This document shows, one piece after another, positions 844 to 64,000 of a DNA stretch of 64,000 bases. The first letter of the stretch is position 1, and each line of letters opens with the position of its first letter. The position numbers were made by a program, and so were the translations under genes. The DNA is taken from the NCBI GenBank assembly GCA_005882215.1, contig VBCK01000123.1, positions 1 to 64,000 on the forward strand. Reading direction: 5' to 3'. Below the pieces are notes generated by a model. That model did not search any database. It saw only the letters and a list, made by a program, of their open reading frames with translations, and was not told where the DNA came from. Source of the stretch: Betaproteobacteria bacterium. Its GTDB lineage: Bacteria; Pseudomonadota; Gammaproteobacteria; Burkholderiales; Burkholderiaceae_F.

Positions 844-2601
844 TTACTCCCGCACCAGATCCCCGAGACCTGCACGCAGTTCGCCCAGAAACGGATCGAA
901 GTCGCGCCACTGATCGACTCCGTCTCCGAAAATCGGGCGGCGCACCTGTTCCGAACTGGCAGTCTGGACCGCACGGTCCGTTTCCCAGAAGCGCAGGCAA
1001 GCCGGCTCGAACGGCAGGCCCAGCGATTCCAGCAGCAGGCGTACCTGAGCATCCGTATCCGCCACCATGGCCTCGTGCCTCACCCGATGCACAGCGCCGG
1101 GCAGCACGTGGTCGATGTGTGACATGAAGCGGACATAGGCCTTGTAGTAGCGCGCCAAGTGATCGAGACGGTAGCTGAAAGCCTGACCGCGCGCGAAATG
1201 CTGCTTGAAGTTCGAAAAACAGCAGGCCATCGCGCTGCGTCTCGCATCGGCGATCTTCGCGTTCGGCAGGATCAGGCGGATCATCGGTACGAAGGCCCAG
1301 TTGTTGGGCATCTTGTCGATGAAGAGCGGCCGGCTCGTCTTGCGGTAGACGCGCGTTGCCTTCAGGTATTGAGCGCCGAGCATCGCCAGCTGCCGTGGCT
1401 CGCACCGGGCCAATGCGTCGACGAAGCCGACATTAAGGTACCCGGAGTCACCGGGCTCGAGGCTGCGCGCCAGCAACTCCAGGTCGGGCAGCTCGTGCGT
1501 TCCTTCCACCATCGAATGGCTGGCGAGGATCTGCTCCACCAGCGTCGAGCCCGAGCGCGGCATGCCGACGATGAAGATCGGGTCCGGCGCGAGATCGCCC
1601 TGCTGGTGTCGCGCGGCGAAGAAAGCGCCATCGAATCTTTCGATCGCGGCGGCTACCAGCGCCTCCACCAGTGCGGGATCGTAGTGCAGTTGTCTCGCGC
1701 GGATCGCGTTGCCGGTCGCATAGTGGCCAAACGCGGGCTGCGGCGCCTTCGCGTCTTCATGCGCCTTGCCCAGCGCGAAATGCAGGTGCAGGCGGTCGTC
1801 GTCGGACATCCGGGCGCCAGCCTGCAAGGCGCGTTCCATCGCTTCGATGTCGGAGGCCTCGAAGCGGATCGACTTCAGATTGGCGAGGCTCCACCAGGCC
1901 TCGCCCAGCGTCGGCTGCAGCTCGATCGCGCGGCGGTAGGCATCCACGCTCTCGTTGCTCCGGCCGACGGTCTTCAAGGAATGTCCGTAGCTCAGCCACA
2001 TGCGTGCATTCTTCGGACGTCGCTTCAGGACGGCTTCGAACCGGAGTGTGGCATCCGTGTAGTCCCCGAGCTTCGCCAGGGCCACGCCCTCCAGGTTGAT
2101 GAAGGCCGGATTGTCCGGCTCCTGCTCCAGCAATCCCTGGGCTTCGGCCAGCGCTTCAGGAACCCGGTGCGTGCGCAGCAGCAGCATCGCCATATTCTGG
2201 CGTGCTCCGAGGAATCCCGGCGCGAGCTCGATCGCCCGCATCAGCAGCGCTTCGGAGTCTTCGAGTCGGCCGATCCGGGCAGCAAGCTCGGCGAGCATGC
2301 GTATCGCCGCGACGTCAGTCGGGTGGGCTTTAAGATGGGGCTTGATCAGACGCTCGGCGACATCGAGCCGGTTGGACGCGAGTGCCAACGCCGCTTCGCG
2401 CAGCACCGGATCATTCACCGACACCAGCATCGCGCGCTGGTAGGCGGCGTCGGCCTCAACGGAAAGGCCCGCACGGAAACAGGCGTCCGCCAGCGCGCGC
2501 CACGCGACAGGGTCGGCAGGAGCGCGCCGGGCCGCCTCTCGCAGGGCCTCGATGAACTCGCCTGGGTTGGAGGAATACTCGCCCGCCGCCTCGATGCCCA
2601 T
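844..2601 (-). CDS. TPR-repeat sulfotransferase family protein
   Basis: About 585 residues. The N-terminal ~320 residues are tandem tetratricopeptide repeats (motifs such as AWRALADACFRAG and NPAFINLEGVALAKLGDY). The C-terminal part is a sulfotransferase domain with the 5'-phosphosulfate-binding loop VGMPRSGSTLVEQIL near residue 340 and the 3'-phosphate region further on (DARRSAMACCFSNFKQ). It would transfer sulfate from PAPS to an unknown acceptor, perhaps a peptide held by the TPRs. The frame opens as far as 2790, but ATG 2601 after a GGGGCG ribosome site begins the conserved part, and the longer N-terminus is basic and low-complexity. Upstream lies the divergent TonB-receptor gene. Confidence 0.83.
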   Translation of the reverse strand: MGIEAAGEYSSNPGEFIEALREAARRAPADPVAWRALADACFRAGLSVEADAAYQRAMLVSVNDPVLREAALALASNRLDVAERLIKPHLKAHPTDVAAIRMLAELAARIGRLEDSEALLMRAIELAPGFLGARQNMAMLLLRTHRVPEALAEAQGLLEQEPDNPAFINLEGVALAKLGDYTDATLRFEAVLKRRPKNARMWLSYGHSLKTVGRSNESVDAYRRAIELQPTLGEAWWSLANLKSIRFEASDIEAMERALQAGARMSDDDRLHLHFALGKAHEDAKAPQPAFGHYATGNAIRARQLHYDPALVEALVAAAIERFDGAFFAARHQQGDLAPDPIFIVGMPRSGSTLVEQILASHSMVEGTHELPDLELLARSLEPGDSGYLNVGFVDALARCEPRQLAMLGAQYLKATRVYRKTSRPLFIDKMPNNWAFVPMIRLILPNAKIADARRSAMACCFSNFKQHFARGQAFSYRLDHLARYYKAYVRFMSHIDHVLPGAVHRVRHEAMVADTDAQVRLLLESLGLPFEPACLRFWETDRAVQTASSEQVRRPIFGDGVDQWRDFDPFLGELRAGLGDLVRE

Positions 2602-2871
2602 CGCCCCAATAATACTGCCCGCCTGCGGCGAGGCGCTCGGACGTTGCCTGCTGCGGCACGCTTTCGGGGCGCGGAAGGGCCGTTTGGAGCGGGACCGGTT
2701 CTTGCTTCGGATCTTAGTGACGGCGGCGGCGGATTCGCTGTGCGGGCTCGGCGGACCGGAAACGGGTTGTTGAAACCGTCCCCGCCGCAACCTAAACTGC
2801 CTATATCCGTCCGGCGAATATAAATTCCAACAGGGCGGATTTCACAAGAAGAGAAAAGCGAGGGGAGGTCG

Positions 2872-4859
2872 ATGTACAAGCACTTATGTGGTTCTCGGCA
2901 GAGGGACCGGATCGAGCAGATCGCGCGTCGCGTGGCGGCCATGGTGATCGCGGTGCCGGCCGCGCCATTGGCCATTTCGCCGGCGATGGCCCAGCAGGTG
3001 GCGCAGGAGAGTGCCGCCAGCCCCGAGTCGATCGTCGTCACCGCCAGCAAGCGGGCGGAGAGCCTGCAGAGCGCGCCTCTGAGCGTCACGGCGCTGACCG
3101 GCGAGGCACTGAGCGAGCATCAGGTCACGTCATTGGACGACTACGTGAAGTTGCTGCCGTCCGTCAGCTACCAGTCGTTCGGTCCAGGCCAGTCGCAGAT
3201 CAATTTCCGCGGCATCACCACCGGCGGCGATGGCATCGTCACGGGCCCCTTGCCGACGGCGGGCGTCTATGTCGACGAGACGTCGGTCACGACGATCGCC
3301 AACGCGCTCGACATTCACGTCTACGACATGGCGCGGGTGGAGGCGCTGTCCGGCCCGCAGGGCACGCTGTATGGCGCCAGCTCTCTGTCAGGCACGCTGC
3401 GCCTGATCACCAACAAGCCGGTGATCGGCAAATGGGAGGGCGGCGTGGACGCTGGGGGCAGCAAGTACGGGCCCGGCGATGGTGGCGGCAGCCTGGAGGG
3501 TTTCCTCAACGTCCCGATCAACGACCGTATGGCGCTGCGCGTGGTCTTCTATGGCGAGCACAAGGGTGGCTACATCAGCAATACGTTTGCGAACCGCACC
3601 TACCAGCGGCCGGTTTGGGTCGATCCCGCCAATCCGAATTCCGTGGTCAACGATTTCCCGCTGACGGTCAACAACGGCAAGTACGTCGACAACAACTTCA
3701 ATTCGGTCGACTCCGCCGGCGGGCGCGCGCTGCTGAAGGTCAACCTCGACGAGAACTGGACGCTGACGCCGGCCGTGTTCCTGCAGAACCAGCTGGCACA
3801 CGGTTCGTTCCTGGAGGACCCGCGCCTCGGCGATTTGCAGGTGCACGACTTCACGCGGGACTTCAACAAGGACAATTGGGAGCTCGCCTCGTTGACGCTG
3901 CAGGGCAAGGTCTCGGACTGGGACCTGACCTACAACCCCGCCTATCTGAGCCGCCGGGTCGACAACATCTCCGACTACTCGTACTTTGTGGTCGCCTACG
4001 ACAAGCTCGCCCAGACCGTGGGCTCGCTCTCCGGTTATACCTATCTGAAGGACTCGCTAGGTCACGACATCGATCCGACGCAGGTCGTGCATACGGCCGA
4101 CCACTACACGAAGCACAGCCACGAGCGCCAACAACACGCTGTTCGGCTTCTCGGGCGGCGCCGGCTCCCTGGTCAATTCCGTGACCGTGAACCACTGCGC
4201 GGTCGCGGCCGCGACCGCCTGCGCCAACACCGACAAGTCCTATCAGGAATCGGGCGAGACCCACAAGATCGAGCTCAAATGGCAGATCGATCCGTCGAAG
4301 ATGACGTACTTCATCTACTCGACCGGGTTCCGACCGGGGGGAAACAACCGCCCGGTGTACATCACCACAGCCACGGGGCCCAGGAGGCAGGACCTGCCAC
4401 CCTTCGCGGCCGACACGCTGACCAACTACGAAATCGGCTGGAAGACCAGCTGGCTCGACCGCCAGCTTTACGTCAACGGAGCGATCTTCTGGGAGCAGTG
4501 GAACAAGATCCAGTACAGCGAGCCGGGGATCCTCGGCATCTTCTACACGGTGAACGCCGGCGATGCCCGCTCCCGCGGCTTCGAGACGCAGGTGCTCTGG
4601 AGGGCCACGCCCGCCACCACGCTGACGCTCAACGGCACCTATGCCGATGCGCGCCTGACGACGTCGTTCTGCAACCAGCAGTTCGGCTGCGATCCGGCCA
4701 ATGGCGGGCAGTTGCTCGCGCCGGCCGGGACGCCGCTGCCGGTCACGCCCAAGATCAAGCTGAACGGCACGGCCAGGTACAACTTCGAAGGGACCTTACG
4801 AGCGCAACTACGTCGTCAAGCCGCAGGAGTTCGGGGTGAAGGTCGGCTACAGGTTCTGA
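2872..4859 (+). pseudogene. TonB-dependent receptor, broken by two internal deletions
   Basis: A good ribosome site (GGGGAGGT) precedes ATG 2872. A signal peptide ending PAMA is followed by the TonB-box-like SIVVTASKRAE and the plug domain (GVYVDET, VEALSGPQGTLYGASSLSGT). The frame is continuous to KHSHE (about 4120). Barrel sequence then resumes one frame over with NNTLFGFSGGAG and runs through GFRPGGNNRP to TARYNFEGT (about 4790). It then jumps again to a third frame that ends with the typical C-terminus VKVGYRF, stop 4857-4859. At each jump a stretch of barrel normally present is missing, so these are deletions and not single-base slips. Total 1,988 bp against about 2.3 kb expected. If real, it makes no functional receptor. 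Confidence 0.85.
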
Positions 4860-14526: not shown

Positions 14527-15684
14527 TCAGGTGCGCGCGGCCGCGACCGCTTTTTGGGCGGCATCGGCCAGATCGCTCGCGCTGATGATCGGCAGGCCGC
14601 TGTCGCGGACGATCCGGTTGCCCTGCTCGGCGTGGGTGCCGGCCAGCCGCACGATCAGCGGCACTTTCAGTCCCGCGGCCGCCTGGACCACGCCCTGCGC
14701 GACCCAATCGCAGCGATTGATGCCCGCGAAGATGTTGACCAGGATCGCCTTGACGTTCCGATCCGACAGCACGAGCCGAAACGCCTCGGCCACGCGCTCG
14801 GGCGAGGCGCCGCCCCCGACGTCCAGGAAGTTGGCCGGCTCGCCCCCGGAGTACTTGATCATGTCCATCGTGGCCATTGCGAGTCCGGCGCCGTTGATGA
14901 TGCAGCCGATGTCGCCGCTCAGCCCGACGTAGTTGAGTCCATGCTGGCTGGCCTGGGCCTCGCGGGGATCCTCCTGCGCTGCGTCTCGCATCTCGGCGAC
15001 CGCAGGACGCCGAAACAGCGCGTTGTCGTCGAACGACATCTTGGCGTCCAGCGCCAGCAGTCGGTTGTCCTTGGTGACGACCAGCGGGTTGATCTCGACC
15101 ATCGTCGCATCCAGGTCGCGGAAGGCCCGATAGCATCCGAGGATCGCGGTCACGGCGCGGCTCACCTGTTTGATGTTCAGGCCGAGCCCGAAGGCGATCT
15201 CGCGGGCCTGGAACGGCTGCATCCCGACGGCCGGCTCGACCTGGATCTGGCGGATCGAATCCGGCTTCTTCTTCGCGACCTCTTCGATTTCGATGCCGCC
15301 TTCGTTTGACGCGAACACCCGGATGCGCTGCAGCTTGCGGTCCAGCACCAGACCGAGGTACAGCTCGCGCTCGTACGGCTCGGCGACCTCCACATAGACG
15401 CGCTGGCACATCTTTCCCTCGGGGCCGGTCTGGCTGGTCACCAGGCGCTTGCCCAGCATCTCCTTGGCCGCCTCGGAAACCTCGTGATAGGTCCGGCACA
15501 GCTTGACGCCGCCGGCTTTGCCGCGACCGCCGGAATGGACCTGGGCCTTGACGGCCCAGTGCCAGCCGCCGAGCTCGGTCGCGACGAACACCGCCTGGTC
15601 GGGGCTGTAGGCGACGCTGCCGCGCGCGATCGGAACGCCGAACCCGGATAGCAGTTCCTTGGCCTGGTACTCGTGAACGTCCAT
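14527..15684 (-). CDS. mtkA: Malate-CoA ligase beta subunit
   Basis: 385 residues with an ATP-grasp domain ([35 protein letters not shown]) and a C-terminal CoA-ligase domain ([16 protein letters not shown]). The catalytic partner of MtkB, it forms malyl-CoA for cleavage by malyl-CoA lyase. Sequence alone resembles sucC; the operon assigns it. The gene follows fchA by 39 bases and precedes mtkB by 18. Confidence 0.93.
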
Positions 15685-15723
15685 CGACCGTCTCCCTCAG
15701 GAATTCGTGAATGCCCCCTGGCT

Positions 15724-16350
15724 TTACCCCAGGCGGGTGAGTACCGTGTTGTAGGCCTGCTCGCTGGCGGTGGCGCAGCGCGCCAGCATCTGGTCGAGCC
15801 GCTCGCGCCGGGAGCGCACGAATTCGGCGTCCTTGATCGACGGCGCGTTGATGTACACGTTCAGTGCCGCGCTTCGAAGCGCGGCGTAAGCGGCCAGCGA
15901 CGCCACGCCGGCGTCGGAGATCACGGCGCGATTTCCGATCGGGGCCACGCGCCGTGCCAGCTCGATCACCTGCGCGCACGCCTCGGCGCACGCGAGCGGC
16001 ACGTCGGTGGCCTGCTTCAGTGCGTCCTGGATCACGCGATCGCGCGCCATCTTGTCCTCGTCGCTCGTTCGGGGCAGCTTGTAGGCCGCCATCAGCGCGT
16101 CGAACGCCTGCGCGTCGGCCGCGATCATTCCGTTCAGGCGCTGCCTCAGAGCTTCGGCCTCGCCCAGCGCCTGGCACATGTCGGCCTCGACACCGTCGTA
16201 ATTCTTCTTCCCGATCGTCAGGTTGCAGACCATCGACACCAGCGCGGCTCCCATGGCCCCCATCACGGCTGCCGCGCTGCCCCCTCCGGGAGTGGGTGCG
16301 GAGCTCGCCAGCTCGTCCAGGAAGCGGCGCAGCGATTGCTCTGCGATCAC
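15724..16350 (-). CDS. fchA: Methenyl-tetrahydrofolate cyclohydrolase FchA
   Basis: About 208 residues of the formiminotransferase-cyclodeaminase C-terminal family: FLDELASSAPTPGGGSAAAV near the start, then long alanine-rich helices and ALRSAALNVYINAPS near the end. It converts methenyl-H4F to formyl-H4F reversibly, linking FtfL with MtdA. GTG 16350 is chosen because it puts the conserved segment about 10 residues in, as in the family, and leaves 17 bases after the mtdA stop; the open frame further upstream is just antisense-like sequence overlapping mtdA. Confidence 0.91.
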   Translation of the reverse strand: MIAEQSLRRFLDELASSAPTPGGGSAAAVMGAMGAALVSMVCNLTIGKKNYDGVEADMCQALGEAEALRQRLNGMIAADAQAFDALMAAYKLPRTSDEDKMARDRVIQDALKQATDVPLACAEACAQVIELARRVAPIGNRAVISDAGVASLAAYAALRSAALNVYINAPSIKDAEFVRSRRERLDQMLARCATASEQAYNTVLTRLG

Positions 16351-16367
16351 GGGACCGGCGCTTTCAC

Positions 16368-17234
16368 TCAGCTCTTGCCGACCATCGTCTTGGCGATCGC
16401 GTAGATCTGCTCGGCATCCAGCACCACGTCGTTGGACTCGAACAGGCGCGCAATGCAGGCCCGATGCAGCGCGATCTTCAGGGACCCGAAGCCGATGGCG
16501 CCGAACACCGTCTTGCCGTTCTTGACGGCCCCCTTGTCCATGATGTCGATGCCCTCGATCCCGGCCGGCGGTGTCGCATTGGCGTCGCACAGCAACTGCA
16601 GCGTCGGGCTGTCCTTCCAGCTGCGTTCGGCCAGAAGCTGGGCACCGGCGGCGCCGGTCGACAGGACGACGTGCGCGTTGGCGGCGTCGCGCGCGCGCGA
16701 CCGCTCGTCGGCGCCTTCCAGCGGCGTCACGTCGACCCCGAATCTCGTCTTGATCGCCTGGCAGGCGGCCTGCGCGCGTGCCAGCGTCCGCGAAGACAGG
16801 CCGACCTGCGCACCCTCGCGGCTCAACATGAAAGCGGCGCGCATTCCGACCGGGCCGGTCCCGGCCAGCACGACCGCCTTCTTGCCGGCCAGCGGGGCCG
16901 AATGCGCCAGGCAGGCCACGGCGGCCGCAGCGGTCGTGTTCGATCCGTTGCTGTCGAGCATCACCGACACCCGGAAACCGGCAAAGAACTTCTTGCGCAC
17001 GGCCTCCAGCAGCGCTTCGCCCGCCGCCATGTCGCTGCCGCCGATGAAGATCGCGGTGAACTTCTTGTCCTTCGGGGCGCGCGTGAAAATCGTGCCGTCG
17101 ACCAGCCCGCCGACATTGCGAGGATCGACCCCGCCGTAAGCGCTCACCTGGTCGGCGCCCCCGTCGTATGCGACCACGTTGTCGAACGATGACGGCATCG
17201 GGTCGGTGTCGAACTGATACAAGAGCTTTTTCAT
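16368..17234 (-). CDS. mtdA: NADP-dependent methylene-H4F/H4MPT dehydrogenase MtdA
   Basis: 288 residues, the usual length. It begins MKKLLYQFDTDPMPSSFD after a GGGAGA ribosome site; the substrate domain contains VVAYDGGADQVSAYGGV, and the nucleotide domain has VVLAGTGPVGMRAAFML and LSSRTLARAQ. It oxidises or reduces methylene-tetrahydrofolate, supplying C1 units to serine hydroxymethyltransferase. Placement hprA-mtdA-fchA is the classical serine-cycle order. The open frame extends to 17276, but ATG 17234 is clearly the family start. Confidence 0.94.
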   Translation of the reverse strand: MKKLLYQFDTDPMPSSFDNVVAYDGGADQVSAYGGVDPRNVGGLVDGTIFTRAPKDKKFTAIFIGGSDMAAGEALLEAVRKKFFAGFRVSVMLDSNGSNTTAAAAVACLAHSAPLAGKKAVVLAGTGPVGMRAAFMLSREGAQVGLSSRTLARAQAACQAIKTRFGVDVTPLEGADERSRARDAANAHVVLSTGAAGAQLLAERSWKDSPTLQLLCDANATPPAGIEGIDIMDKGAVKNGKTVFGAIGFGSLKIALHRACIARLFESNDVVLDAEQIYAIAKTMVGKS

Positions 17235-59898: not shown

Positions 59899-61638
59899 AT
59901 GCCACTACCCAAAGCGCCCGACAAGCCCGCCACGATCCTGCTGCCGGCCGACTCGCCTGCCCCGCCGGCGCCTGCGCGCGCGCGCCGCCCCGGCTCCGCG
60001 CTGAACGCTTCGCCGGGCAAGCCCGCCTCCGCGCCGAGCGCTTCGCCGGGCAAGCCCGCCTCCGGACTGCGCGCTTCGCCGGGCCTGCCCTCCGAAGCGC
60101 CCCGCGCGAAGGCGGGCGAGCCCGCATCCGAGTTGCGCGCTCGGACGGGCCAGCCCGCATCGGAGCCGCGCGCGCGCGAGCGCCCGGCAGCCCACCTGGC
60201 GCTGGTCGAAACGCGCACTCGCGCTGCCGGTCGCAAGGTGCGTCCTGCGAGCGGCCGACCCAAGCTGTTCGTGCTCGACACCAACGTGTTGATGCACGAC
60301 CCCACGAGCCTGTTTCGCTTCGAGGAGCACGACATCTTCCTGCCGATGATGACGCTGGAGGAGTTGGACGGCCACAAGAAAGGCCTGTCGGAGGTGGCGC
60401 GCAACGCCCGGCAGGCGAGCCGCTCGCTCGATGCACTGGTGGCGACCTGCCACCACAAGATCGAGGAGGGGATTTTGCTGTCCTCGATCGGCAACACCGA
60501 GGCCACCGGCCGCCTGTTTCTGCAGACGGAGGCGATCGCGGAGGTACTGCCTCCCAGCTTGCCGGTCGGGAAGGCCGACAACCACATCCTCGGGGTCGTG
60601 CGCGCGCTGAGCCAGACGCGCGCCGACTGCGACGTGGTGCTGGTGTCCAAGGACATCAACATGCGCGTGAAGGCGCGCGCGCTCGGCCTGTCTGCCGAGG
60701 ACTACACGAACGACAAGGTGCTGGAGGACACCGACGTCCTGTACACGGGGGTCCTCGCCTTGCCGGACAACTTCTGGGACCGACACTCCAAGGCCATGGA
60801 GTCCTGGCAGCAAAGCGGCGCCACCTACTACCGCATCACCGGACCCCTGGTGCCGGAGCTGCTGATCAACGAATTCGTGTTTCTGGAGGTGGCAACGCCG
60901 CCGTTTTACGCCCAGGTGAAGGAAATCCGCGCCAAGACGGCGGTGCTGCGCGTGCTGCGCGACTACCTGCATGCGAAGAACGCCGTATGGGGCATCACGG
61001 CGCGCAACCGCGAGCAGAGTTTCGCGCTGAATCTGCTGATGGACCCGGATTGCGATTTCGTCACGCTGATCGGGCAAGCCGGCACCGGCAAGACGCTGCT
61101 GGCGCTGGCCGCCGGCCTGGCACAGACGCTGGAATCGCGCCGCTACTCCGAGATCATCATGACGCGGGCCACGGTGCCGTTCGGCGAAGACATCGGTTTT
61201 TTGCCGGGCACCGAGGAAGAGAAGATGGCGCCCTGGATGGGAGCACTCGAAGACAACCTGGAAGTGCTGAACCGCGGCGAGGACGCGGCCGGCGAATGGG
61301 GTCGGGCCGCCACCAACGATTTGATCAGAACGCGAATCCGGATCAAGGCGATGAGCTTCATGCGCGGACGCACGTTCATCAGCAAGTACCTGATCATCGA
61401 CGAAGCGCAGAATCTGACGCCCAAGCAGATGAAGACGCTGATCACGCGCGCCGGGCCCGGCACCAAGGTGGTGTGCCTGGGCAACATCGCGCAGATCGAC
61501 ACCCCGTATCTGACCGAGGGCAGCTCGGGCCTGAGCTACGTGGTCGATCGCTTCAAGGGCTGGCCGCACGCGGGCCATGTGACGCTGCAGCGCGGCGAGC
61601 GCTCAAGGCTGGCCGACCACGCGGCCGAAGCGCTTTAG
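59899..61638 (+). CDS. phoH: PIN-PhoH family ATPase with repeat-expanded N-terminus
   Basis: 579 residues. Residues 1-120 are a proline/alanine-rich low-complexity extension containing iterated ASPGKPAS units, coded by the GGGCAAGCCC palindromes. A PIN domain follows (KLFVLDTNVLMHDPTSLF from residue 122), then the PhoH ATPase domain with Walker A GQAGTGKTLLALAAG near 391 and Walker B YLIIDEAQNLTPKQMK. PhoH2-type proteins are reported to combine RNA helicase and ribonuclease activity. An internal 58-bp segment (60974-61031) recurs upstream of the Sir2 gene. Confidence 0.92.
   Translation: MPLPKAPDKPATILLPADSPAPPAPARARRPGSALNASPGKPASAPSASPGKPASGLRASPGLPSEAPRAKAGEPASELRARTGQPASEPRARERPAAHLALVETRTRAAGRKVRPASGRPKLFVLDTNVLMHDPTSLFRFEEHDIFLPMMTLEELDGHKKGLSEVARNARQASRSLDALVATCHHKIEEGILLSSIGNTEATGRLFLQTEAIAEVLPPSLPVGKADNHILGVVRALSQTRADCDVVLVSKDINMRVKARALGLSAEDYTNDKVLEDTDVLYTGVLALPDNFWDRHSKAMESWQQSGATYYRITGPLVPELLINEFVFLEVATPPFYAQVKEIRAKTAVLRVLRDYLHAKNAVWGITARNREQSFALNLLMDPDCDFVTLIGQAGTGKTLLALAAGLAQTLESRRYSEIIMTRATVPFGEDIGFLPGTEEEKMAPWMGALEDNLEVLNRGEDAAGEWGRAATNDLIRTRIRIKAMSFMRGRTFISKYLIIDEAQNLTPKQMKTLITRAGPGTKVVCLGNIAQIDTPYLTEGSSGLSYVVDRFKGWPHAGHVTLQRGERSRLADHAAEAL
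60000..60180. repeat. In-frame palindromic repeats in the phoH 5' region
   Basis: Three units of CGCTTCGCCGGGC(AA/CT)GCC-type sequence begin at about 60006, 60039 and 60072, spaced 33 bases (11 codons), followed by degenerate copies and an inverse copy (CGCGAAGGCGGGCGAGCCCG at 60104). They encode ASPGKPAS-like units in a probably disordered linker. The core is that of the intergenic palindrome at 46838 and the mobB insertion. Confidence 0.7.
60974..61031 (+). repeat. 58-bp direct repeat, copy 1 (inside phoH)
   Basis: This exact 58-base sequence, coding KNAVWGITARNREQSFALN in phoH, occurs again at 62591-62648. Bases on both sides differ between the copies. Here it is part of an intact gene, so this is the original copy. 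Confidence 0.95.
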
Positions 61639-61919
61639 GATCCGCTACAAGACCATAGCGTCCTCACCACATCCGCGCTGCGCCCGTGCAGCCCGCTGCA
61701 CCATGACCACAATCGAAGCTCGCATATTGATTCGCGCGCCGGCGACGCGGTGACGGAGGCCATGTTCGGGTCCGGGTGACTGATGCACCGCCGAACGAAT
61801 GCCGCCAATATAATGATGCAGGAACAGGCCGACCCGCCTGCTTCTATGGGTGAGCCGAACGGTCGGCAGGTTCACCGGCTCGAACACCCGGAAAGAAATC
61901 AAGACGGAAGGAACCGCAG
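61639..61919. other. Spacer before the spanin genes
   Basis: 281 bases without a gene I can support. It holds a consensus -10 box TATAAT (61809-61814) but no matching -35, and a ribosome site GGAAGGAAC just before the next start. A promoter for the spanin genes is plausible. No clear terminator for phoH is seen. Confidence 0.5.
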
Positions 61920-62483
61920 ATGAGCGATGAACAGTTTACTCGTGAACCGCCGAGGAACCGGGCGCGTGAAATTCTGATCTATTTCGCAGTCACGGTGGCG
62001 GCGTTCGGCGCGGGCATGCTGCTGGAGTCGCAACTGGCTGCGCACACAGCGGCCTCGCTGAAGCTCGCTCACGAACAGCAACTGAAGCAGGCCGCGGAAA
62101 GGGCGGAACAGGACAAGCAGACGTTGACCGACACACTGGCGAAGGAGCGTGAAGAACATGCAAAAGATATTCAAGCAAAAGATCGGCATCTGGCTGCTTT
62201 TAGTGGCCGTGCTGCCGGGGTGCGCCGTAGTCTCGAAGCCGGCCTGTCCGCCGCCCGAAGCTCAGGAGAAGCCTGTACCGCCCGAATTGCTGGAATCTCC
62301 GAAGCCATCGGTGGAGTCTTCGACAGTATCGGAGAAGTTACCGGAATCGCTCAAGACCTTGGACGAGAGAATCAACAACTTAAAGAAGATAATAAGTCTC
62401 TCTCCACAAAGCTAGCCGGCTGGCAGAAGTGGAACGCCGAGCGACCCCAACGGGTCACGATCGTCGGCGAAAAGAGCGATTGA
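61920..62483 (+). CDS. Rz-like inner-membrane spanin (i-spanin)
   Basis: 187 residues. A short cytoplasmic head is followed by one N-terminal membrane span (ILIYFAVTVAAFGAGMLLES) and a long charged coiled coil (residues ~45-85, rich in Glu, Lys, Gln) in the periplasm, then a weaker second coil (GRENQQLKEDNKSLSTKLAG). This is the architecture of phage Rz proteins, which with Rz1 fuse the two membranes at the last step of lysis. Wholly nested in it in the +1 frame is a lipoprotein gene with Rz1 features. No holin, endolysin or other phage gene accompanies it. Composition is less GC-rich than the neighbours. Confidence 0.75.
   Translation: MSDEQFTREPPRNRAREILIYFAVTVAAFGAGMLLESQLAAHTAASLKLAHEQQLKQAAERAEQDKQTLTDTLAKEREEHAKDIQAKDRHLAAFSGRAAGVRRSLEAGLSAARSSGEACTARIAGISEAIGGVFDSIGEVTGIAQDLGRENQQLKEDNKSLSTKLAGWQKWNAERPQRVTIVGEKSD
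62149..62415 (+). CDS. Rz1-like outer-membrane spanin lipoprotein, nested in the Rz gene
   Basis: 88 residues read in the +1 frame inside the i-spanin gene. Signal MKNMQKIFKQKIGIWLLLVA leads to the lipobox VLPGC; the mature part is short and proline-rich (KPACPPPEAQEKPVPPE) with a helical end. Small proline-rich lipoprotein, embedded out of frame in a type II single-span coiled-coil gene: exactly the lambda Rz/Rz1 pattern. It would sit in the outer membrane and bind the i-spanin. Confidence 0.78.
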   Translation: MKNMQKIFKQKIGIWLLLVAVLPGCAVVSKPACPPPEAQEKPVPPELLESPKPSVESSTVSEKLPESLKTLDERINNLKKIISLSPQS

Positions 62484-62590
62484 CCCTGGCGACGACGAAC
62501 GCGTCGAGCCCGGCCCGGACCGAAGCCGACATCAGGAATTTCGCTGCCCCTGGCGTCATGGCCGTTCCAGCGTGCTCTGCGGTTTACGAA

Positions 62591-62648
62591 CGAAGAACGC
62601 CGTATGGGGCATCACGGCGCGCAACCGCGAGCAGAGTTTCGCGCTGAA
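62591..62648 (+). repeat. 58-bp direct repeat, copy 2 (phoH fragment upstream of sir2)
   Basis: An exact copy of 58 bases from inside phoH (60974-61031), on the same strand, lying between the spanin genes and the Sir2 gene. In the frame that leads into sir2 it even keeps the phoH reading (KNAVWGITARNREQSFALN). No phoH sequence continues on either side. It bounds, with copy 1, a segment of about 1.6 kb that contains the spanin genes. Confidence 0.95.
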
Positions 62649-62691
62649 CCAGGATGCTCGTTCTGGAGGATTTCGCCGTTGCAGGTACGCC

Positions 62692-63561
62692 ATGGCCGCA
62701 TTCGGAACAGAAATTGACCGAGCCGGTGATCTGATACGGCGTCTGTTCGAGGATGGTTCCGTTGTTGTTCTCGCCGGTGCGGGGTTGAGCACATCAAGCG
62801 GAATTCCGGACTATCGAGACGGTGACGGCCAATGGAAGGGCGCCAGGCCCGTCGATCATCATGACTTCCTGCGATCCGAGAGCACGCGTAGGCGCTACTG
62901 GGCAAGGAGCTTCGTGGGCTGGCCCATCGTCGGTTTGGCGACCCCAGGCCGGGGCCATCGTGCTTTGGCCCGGCTCGAGCATCTGGGCCGCATTGCTCTG
63001 ATCATTACGCAAAATGTGGACGGCTTGCACCAGAAAGCGGGGAGTCGATGCGTACTCGAACTCCATGGGGGATTGGAGCGGGTGATTTGCTTGTACTGCC
63101 ATCGGACATTCCAGCGTGCTTGCGTTCAAACGTGGATGAGCGAGGCCAATCCAGGCTTTACCAGTGACGCCGCGCCGGTTGGCCCGGATGGCGATGCTCA
63201 GGTTGCGGAGAGGTTTCATGCTGATTTTCGCATTCCGGCTTGCCCCTCTTGTGGCGGCATGCTCAAGCCGGATGTAGTGTTCTTCGGCGACAGCGTGCCG
63301 AAGGATCGCGTCAAGGCCGGCATGGACGCCATCGCTGTGGCCCGTGGCCTATTGGTGGTCGGATCCTCCTTGATGGTCTATTCAGGATTCCGATTTGCCG
63401 AACACGCGCATCGGCTCGGTAAGCCCGTCATGGCCATCAACCTCGGGAAAACGCGCGCTGATTGCCTGCTGTATGCCAAGGTTCAAGACGACTGCGACGA
63501 ATTTCTGCACACACTGCAGATGGAGACGGCTGTGGCTGCAGAGGGGCCTTGCTTCCTGTGA
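62692..63561 (+). CDS. Sir2-family NAD-dependent deacylase
   Basis: 289 residues from ATG 62692 (MAAFGTEIDRAGDLIRR). Motifs are VLAGAGLSTSSGIPDYRDGD, IITQNVDGLHQKAG, catalytic His in LELHGGLERV, and zinc cysteines CLYC and CPSCGG; KPDVVFFGD and VGSSLMVYSGFRF complete the fold. It removes acyl groups from protein lysines using NAD. The frame is open upstream through the phoH repeat, but that part is not Sir2. A weak AGG ribosome site precedes the ATG. Confidence 0.93.
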   Translation: MAAFGTEIDRAGDLIRRLFEDGSVVVLAGAGLSTSSGIPDYRDGDGQWKGARPVDHHDFLRSESTRRRYWARSFVGWPIVGLATPGRGHRALARLEHLGRIALIITQNVDGLHQKAGSRCVLELHGGLERVICLYCHRTFQRACVQTWMSEANPGFTSDAAPVGPDGDAQVAERFHADFRIPACPSCGGMLKPDVVFFGDSVPKDRVKAGMDAIAVARGLLVVGSSLMVYSGFRFAEHAHRLGKPVMAINLGKTRADCLLYAKVQDDCDEFLHTLQMETAVAAEGPCFL

Positions 63562-63667
63562 TGCGCCCGCTTACGAAATAGCTCTGAAGGATCCCGCAAC
63601 GGGCTACAGCGTGCGGCGGAGGTCGATCTTCGCCACGCACGGGTCGCGCTTTCCAGGCTTGGAGGCG

Positions 63668-64000
63668 TCAGAAGCGGTAGGACAGGCCCAGCTGCACCTC
63701 ACCCTGCGCCACGGCATCTGCCTTGATCTTGAAGACGCAGCCGCCCGAACAGAACAGCCCGCCGCTGCTTTTGACGAGCGTTACATAGCCTCGCGTTTCG
63801 AGGCGCAGCGCGACATGCCTTCCAAGAGTCGCCTGATAGCCGATGCCGAGGTTCAGCGAAGGCCTGACTTCGTCGCTGTAGCCGCTCGCTCCGGGTTGGA
63901 ACAGCGTGGCGCCAAGCCCGCCGACGAGGTACGGACCCTGGCCGATCGAACCATCGAGGAAGTTGGTGCCGCCGATGTGGAAGTAGATCACCTTGATCGG
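63668..64000 (-). CDS. Outer-membrane beta-barrel protein, 5' end outside window
   Basis: 111 codons visible, open to the right edge of the window. Alternating hydrophobic residues (YLVGGLGATLFQPG, SLNLGIGYQATLGRHVALRL, ETRGYVTLVKS) and the C-terminal GEVQLGLSYRF with final Phe are those of an OmpA/OmpW-like small barrel. A Cys pair (FCSGGCVF) lies in a loop. Function unknown. Confidence 0.75.
   Translation of the reverse strand, partial: PIKVIYFHIGGTNFLDGSIGQGPYLVGGLGATLFQPGASGYSDEVRPSLNLGIGYQATLGRHVALRLETRGYVTLVKSSGGLFCSGGCVFKIKADAVAQGEVQLGLSYRF

Follow-up and report, generated by a model that had tools for sequence, protein, structure and literature searches.

The window, a stretch of 64,000 nucleotides of contig VBCK01000123.1 from a Betaproteobacteria bacterium (assembly GCA_005882215.1), carries two genes close to its right end that share the same DNA in different frames. 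The initial annotation had described an outer ORF with a small proline-rich lipoprotein ORF wholly nested in its +1 frame, and both ORFs are present as described. The features of the locus are the following.

61908-61913, + strand: Shine-Dalgarno-like AAGGAA, 6 nt before the outer ATG, read from the sequence; its counterpart in the congener is GGAGGAAA
61920-62483, + strand: i-spanin-like gene (Rz-type), 187 aa
62142-62147, + strand: Shine-Dalgarno-like AAGGAG within the outer gene, 10 nt before the nested ATG, read from the sequence; identical in the congener
62158-62415, + strand: o-spanin-like gene (Rz1-type), wholly nested in the +1 frame of the outer gene, 85 aa
62221-62223, + strand: codon of Cys22, the predicted lipid-accepting residue of the nested lipoprotein (sequence and congener alignment)
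62245-62247, + strand: codon of Cys30 of the nested lipoprotein, directly before PPP
62274-62276, + strand: codon of Cys119 of the outer protein, at the break between two helices (congener alignment and model)
62591-62648, + strand: 58 bp that exactly repeat an internal part of phoH (60974-61031); a short way downstream of the pair, between it and sir2
61639-64000, no strand assigned: the window portion of a species-specific insert that separates phoH from dnaB, continues to G000:C95:65823 and totals about 4.2 kb

The outer gene is predicted to encode a type II membrane protein, with a basic N-terminus followed by a single transmembrane segment at about residues 17-36 (the hydrophobic peak), N-in. 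In the AlphaFold model, which is of moderate confidence (mean pLDDT 65), long helices cover residues 12-115 (the transmembrane segment plus a first coiled coil, CC1) and residues 120-174 (CC2). The helix is broken at residues 116-119, and Cys119 lies at the break. The layout predicted from the sequence and the model is that of an i-spanin, i.e. a short cytoplasmic N-terminus, one transmembrane segment and a C-out coiled-coil periplasmic domain. No promoter-like site was seen upstream of the pair.

The nested gene most likely starts at the ATG at 62158, giving 85 residues, rather than at the longer in-frame GTG at 62149, because AAGGAG lies 10 nt upstream of the ATG and the GTG is replaced by GCG in the congener. 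Its product is predicted to be a small, proline-rich lipoprotein of the o-spanin type, a call made by reading the sequence: a signal peptide of type II ends in the lipobox VLPG|C22, a second cysteine stands in Cys30-Pro-Pro-Pro, and 17% of the mature part is proline. The nested protein of the congener has the same VLPG|C lipobox and a mature part with 20% proline, and the residue at position +2 is not aspartate in either species. The LPGC motif deviates at position -2 from the strict consensus [LVI][ASTVI][GAS]C, and several published o-spanins likewise deviate from the strict lipobox (PMC6139136).

A single relative of the pair was found by whole-genome searches, in the sole congener (G001, public contig JAFAIM010000012, a Burkholderiaceae MAG). 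The outer proteins of the two orthologues are 72% identical and the nested proteins 71% identical (61/85), in a comparison of two sequences whose assemblies are both fragmented, into 302 and about 100 contigs. The congener keeps the lipobox, both periplasmic cysteines (Cys119 of the outer and Cys30 of the nested protein), both ribosome-binding sites and both unbroken frames. The initial annotation had named the conservation of the nested lipobox as a mark of a genuine pair and the loss of the nested frame in homologues as a sign against it; in the one homologue the lipobox is identical and the nested frame is retained under selection. This selection is visible in the third codon positions of the outer gene, which diverge between the species by 44% ahead of the overlap and by 39% past it, but by only 16% in the overlap itself (inside the nested gene 16%, against 43% in the rest of the outer gene; Fisher p=7e-5). 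The outer gene was also evolved from one species to the other in 5000 simulated trials, which kept its actual amino-acid replacements and took the rate of codon turnover from the parts not overlapped. In these trials, run without selection on the nested frame, the observed nested identity of 61/85 was reached in 0/5000 (mean 44, maximum 60), and a third-position divergence as low as the observed one occurred in 0.02%. When codons were randomised while preserving the outer protein, the nested frame stayed open in both species in only 0.23% of cases. Judged from these comparisons, both frames are real genes under selection, because third-position change is suppressed within the overlap and the simulation never reproduces the conservation of the nested protein.

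In the window genome the pair lies among housekeeping genes, in the order bcp, phoH, spanin pair, sir2, outer-membrane beta-barrel, MFS transporter, dnaB. The genes from the pair to the MFS transporter make up the insert; in the congener, which has no such insert, phoH and dnaB are only about 120 bp apart. The congener pair is found at an unrelated locus, on another contig than phoH and again among housekeeping genes, between threonine aldolase-like and trypsin-like protease genes. The description of phoH and sir2 as neighbours thus holds for the window and fails in the congener, and the expectation that both frames would be conserved next to phoH was refuted, as the congener keeps both of them elsewhere. 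The earlier statement that no holin, endolysin or structural phage genes are visible holds for the neighbours tested on both sides, so that neither a phage or prophage lysis cassette nor a type 10 secretion system was recognised beside either copy. Some parts of the window are syntenic with the congener: the left end (848-4790) with its spanin contig C32, 3 kb from the pair, and the stretch from 48172 onwards with its phoH contig C17, with a synteny break between the left and the right parts. Near the start of phoH, at 59956-60186, a six-fold 33-bp direct repeat encodes an Ala/Pro-rich N-terminal extension, and the DNA alignment with the congener breaks within this repeat region, at 59997-60164.

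Two further elements around the pair were considered. The 58-bp copy of phoH has arisen either by templated insertion where the insert borders on its flank or as an artefact of the assembly; it was rejected as an attachment site, as phoH reaches its normal end after the left copy and no phoH follows the right copy. A link to defence through sir2 was also rejected. The gene encodes an ordinary NAD-dependent deacetylase (PRK05333 above its cut-off) with weak PADLOC matches, and in the congener it does not adjoin the pair. The only Phage_lysozyme gene in either genome is on contig C79 of the congener (G001:C79), unlinked to the pair and beside TonB/ExbB/ExbD-like genes. At about 14600-16450 of the corresponding locus (L032), annotated by eye, it stands between an alpha/beta-hydrolase-like ORF and a lysozyme inhibitor LprI-like gene, and it might encode a secreted lysozyme accompanied by immunity, not a phage endolysin.

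The initial annotation had left the choice between a prophage remnant and a pair kept by the host. The rival that survives best is that of a true spanin pair which is a prophage relic, two related phages having left their spanin genes at different loci, too recently for decay. The difference in loci speaks for such a history, as does the short reach of the homology between the two copies, which extends no further than about 17 bp upstream of the outer ATG and 3 bp beyond the stop codon of the outer gene. The window pair moreover sits in a species-specific insert of patchy content with a stray phoH fragment, only 2/67 family genomes carry the pair, and its GC content (57%) is well below the 67% of the contig, although dual coding accounts for part of this depression (GC3 of the outer gene 0.40 within the overlap versus 0.71-0.78 outside it). 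Against a relic, no residue of an endolysin, holin, tail or integrase gene was seen beside either copy, and the flanking gaps gave no phage match above noise. Terminase_6N and PhageMin_Tail genes, markers that not every phage carries, are absent from both genomes, which are fragmented. The phage, plasmid and viral-contig collections searched yielded no close homologue, the viral-contig scans being based on short patterns that distant viral relatives could escape. It would also be a coincidence if two prophages had independently been reduced to exactly these two genes. The third-position divergence of the pair outside the overlap (0.43) falls within the range of syntenic orthologues (0.36-0.48, leaving out an aminotransferase aligned in the wrong frame), as expected if the pair was present in the common ancestor of both species; since the loci differ, this level of divergence is the one ground for vertical descent. 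The balance leans moderately towards retention, given a divergence like that of orthologues, unbroken frames and no phage genes nearby. We give retention, whether this means a role in the host or just maintenance over a long time, about twice the odds of a relic, a reading that we regard as rather doubtful.

A second alternative is that the pair is not a spanin at all: a chromosomal single-span coiled-coil protein and an unrelated nested lipoprotein, of other function, would have been overprinted in the genus. The family searches leave room for this reading. No family matched above its cut-off, the best Pfam, NCBIfam and PADLOC scores for the pair being generic coiled-coil noise, and Foldseek gave nothing significant, the search against viral structures yielding nothing below E=1, as expected for a low-confidence coiled-coil model. 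The comparison with lambda Rz by hhalign gave a probability of 0.15%, with no pairwise or profile similarity. Beyond the congener, no relatives were found in 67 family, 399 order and 369 class genomes, apart from coiled-coil matches. One candidate (G002) was rejected as an MreC coiled-coil match over the last 63 residues, and a second (G068) matches that same stretch of the query. A third (G484; E=1e-4; residues 57-143, within a frame of 738 aa) was likewise taken for a coiled-coil match. The viral loci L033-L092, picked by DNA patterns for GWQKWN and FDSIGEVT, contained no relative by hmmsearch, and the tblastn matches to Staphylococcus jumbo phages at E=5 were noise. On the other side, the PHROG matches, all sub-threshold (E 0.05-1), are repeatedly to Rz-like spanins for both proteins. 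Some of these families are also matched weakly by lambda Rz itself, and none of ten shuffled controls named a spanin family. The outer gene aligns with no non-spanin family above its cut-off, whereas an alignment of that kind had been named beforehand as evidence against a spanin. The landmarks also occur together: a type II transmembrane segment, two helices separated by a break that carries a cysteine, a lipoprotein nested in +1 where such genes typically lie, and a cysteine before a proline run. This co-occurrence and the recurrence of spanin families, absent from the shuffles, make a non-spanin origin improbable. The spanin reading of the nested anatomy is in this way supported, and the pair is filed as a spanin by anatomy, not by proven homology. 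The weakest alternative, a chance open frame in a GC-rich gene, can draw on the finding that about 16% of the codon-randomised outer genes contain a +1 stretch this long, but it is hardly credible in view of the conserved lipobox and ribosome-binding site, the suppression of third-position change exactly within the overlap, and the simulations, which already contradict it.

Spanin pairs in bacterial genomes are also known from the cryptic prophages of Escherichia coli, i.e. RzpD/RzoD of DLP12 and RzpR/RzoR of Rac. These are located inside recognisable prophage remnants, whereas none was seen around the window pair. The plan of the pair is that of the embedded spanins of phage lambda, Rz/Rz1, in which a type II coiled-coil membrane protein is likewise associated with a lipoprotein wholly nested in the +1 frame (PMC6139136). 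The nested gene spans 0.42-0.88 of the outer gene; for lambda Rz1, compared here by sequence, the span is 0.48-0.87 of Rz, in the same frame. In most of the published embedded pairs the o-spanin begins at 0.4-0.5 of the length of the i-spanin and finishes at 0.9-1, and a periplasmic cysteine is present in nearly all two-component spanins (PMC6139136). Lambda Rz is ordered as a transmembrane domain, CC1, a linker and CC2 (PMC5295617), which parallels the helix-break-helix of the window protein, with its cysteine at the break. In lambda Rz1, Cys29 precedes the proline run as Cys30 does here, although the run is PPPPP in lambda and PPP in the window pair. The window proteins are longer (187 and 85 residues versus 153 and 60), the outer one has no C-terminal cysteine equivalent to Rz C152, and, unlike Rz/Rz1, the pair has no detectable sequence homology to lambda, no upstream holin or endolysin and no phage context. 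The type 10 secretion systems of Yersinia and Serratia are host-used chromosomal holin/endolysin/spanin cassettes (PMC10847048). Like the window pair, they have spanin genes that lie among host genes of a bacterial chromosome and not in a phage; however, their spanin genes form one cassette with the holin and the endolysin, and the window pair stands alone.

Our preferred reading, to which we give a probability of roughly 0.6, is that of an embedded two-component spanin built like lambda Rz/Rz1, which an ancestor of the genus most likely took over from a phage and which has since persisted independently of phages. The outer gene would encode an inner-membrane coiled-coil i-spanin and the nested gene an outer-membrane proline-rich lipoprotein o-spanin. 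As in spanins in general, the two would join through their C-terminal parts across the periplasm, in a complex held by disulfide-linked dimers (Cys30, Cys119) and presumably idle while the peptidoglycan is intact. A breach of the wall would then lead to fusion of the inner and outer membranes and open the envelope. With no linked holin or endolysin, the trigger could be wall damage or an endolysin encoded elsewhere, and the outcome may be the lysis of some cells, as with the chromosomal spanins of type 10 secretion systems. The best reading of the function, by analogy, is outer-membrane disruption or inner/outer membrane fusion. A bolder version is put forward tentatively and appears to us rather unlikely: the genus would have domesticated a stand-alone spanin pair, maintained by selection in the absence of a linked holin or endolysin, and damage to the wall would by itself set off this envelope-fusion device.

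Spanins normally serve phages in breaking open the bacterial outer membrane; they have been described in phage lysis cassettes and, more recently, in the type 10 secretion cassettes of hosts. If the bolder version is true, a domesticated stand-alone pair would serve explosive lysis, vesicle release or altruistic death. The pair is in addition a compact test case of two proteins sharing one stretch of DNA under selection. Overall, the retention of both frames since the split of the two species, with neither holin nor endolysin linked to them, suggests that membrane fusion may have been kept by the host as a separate function.
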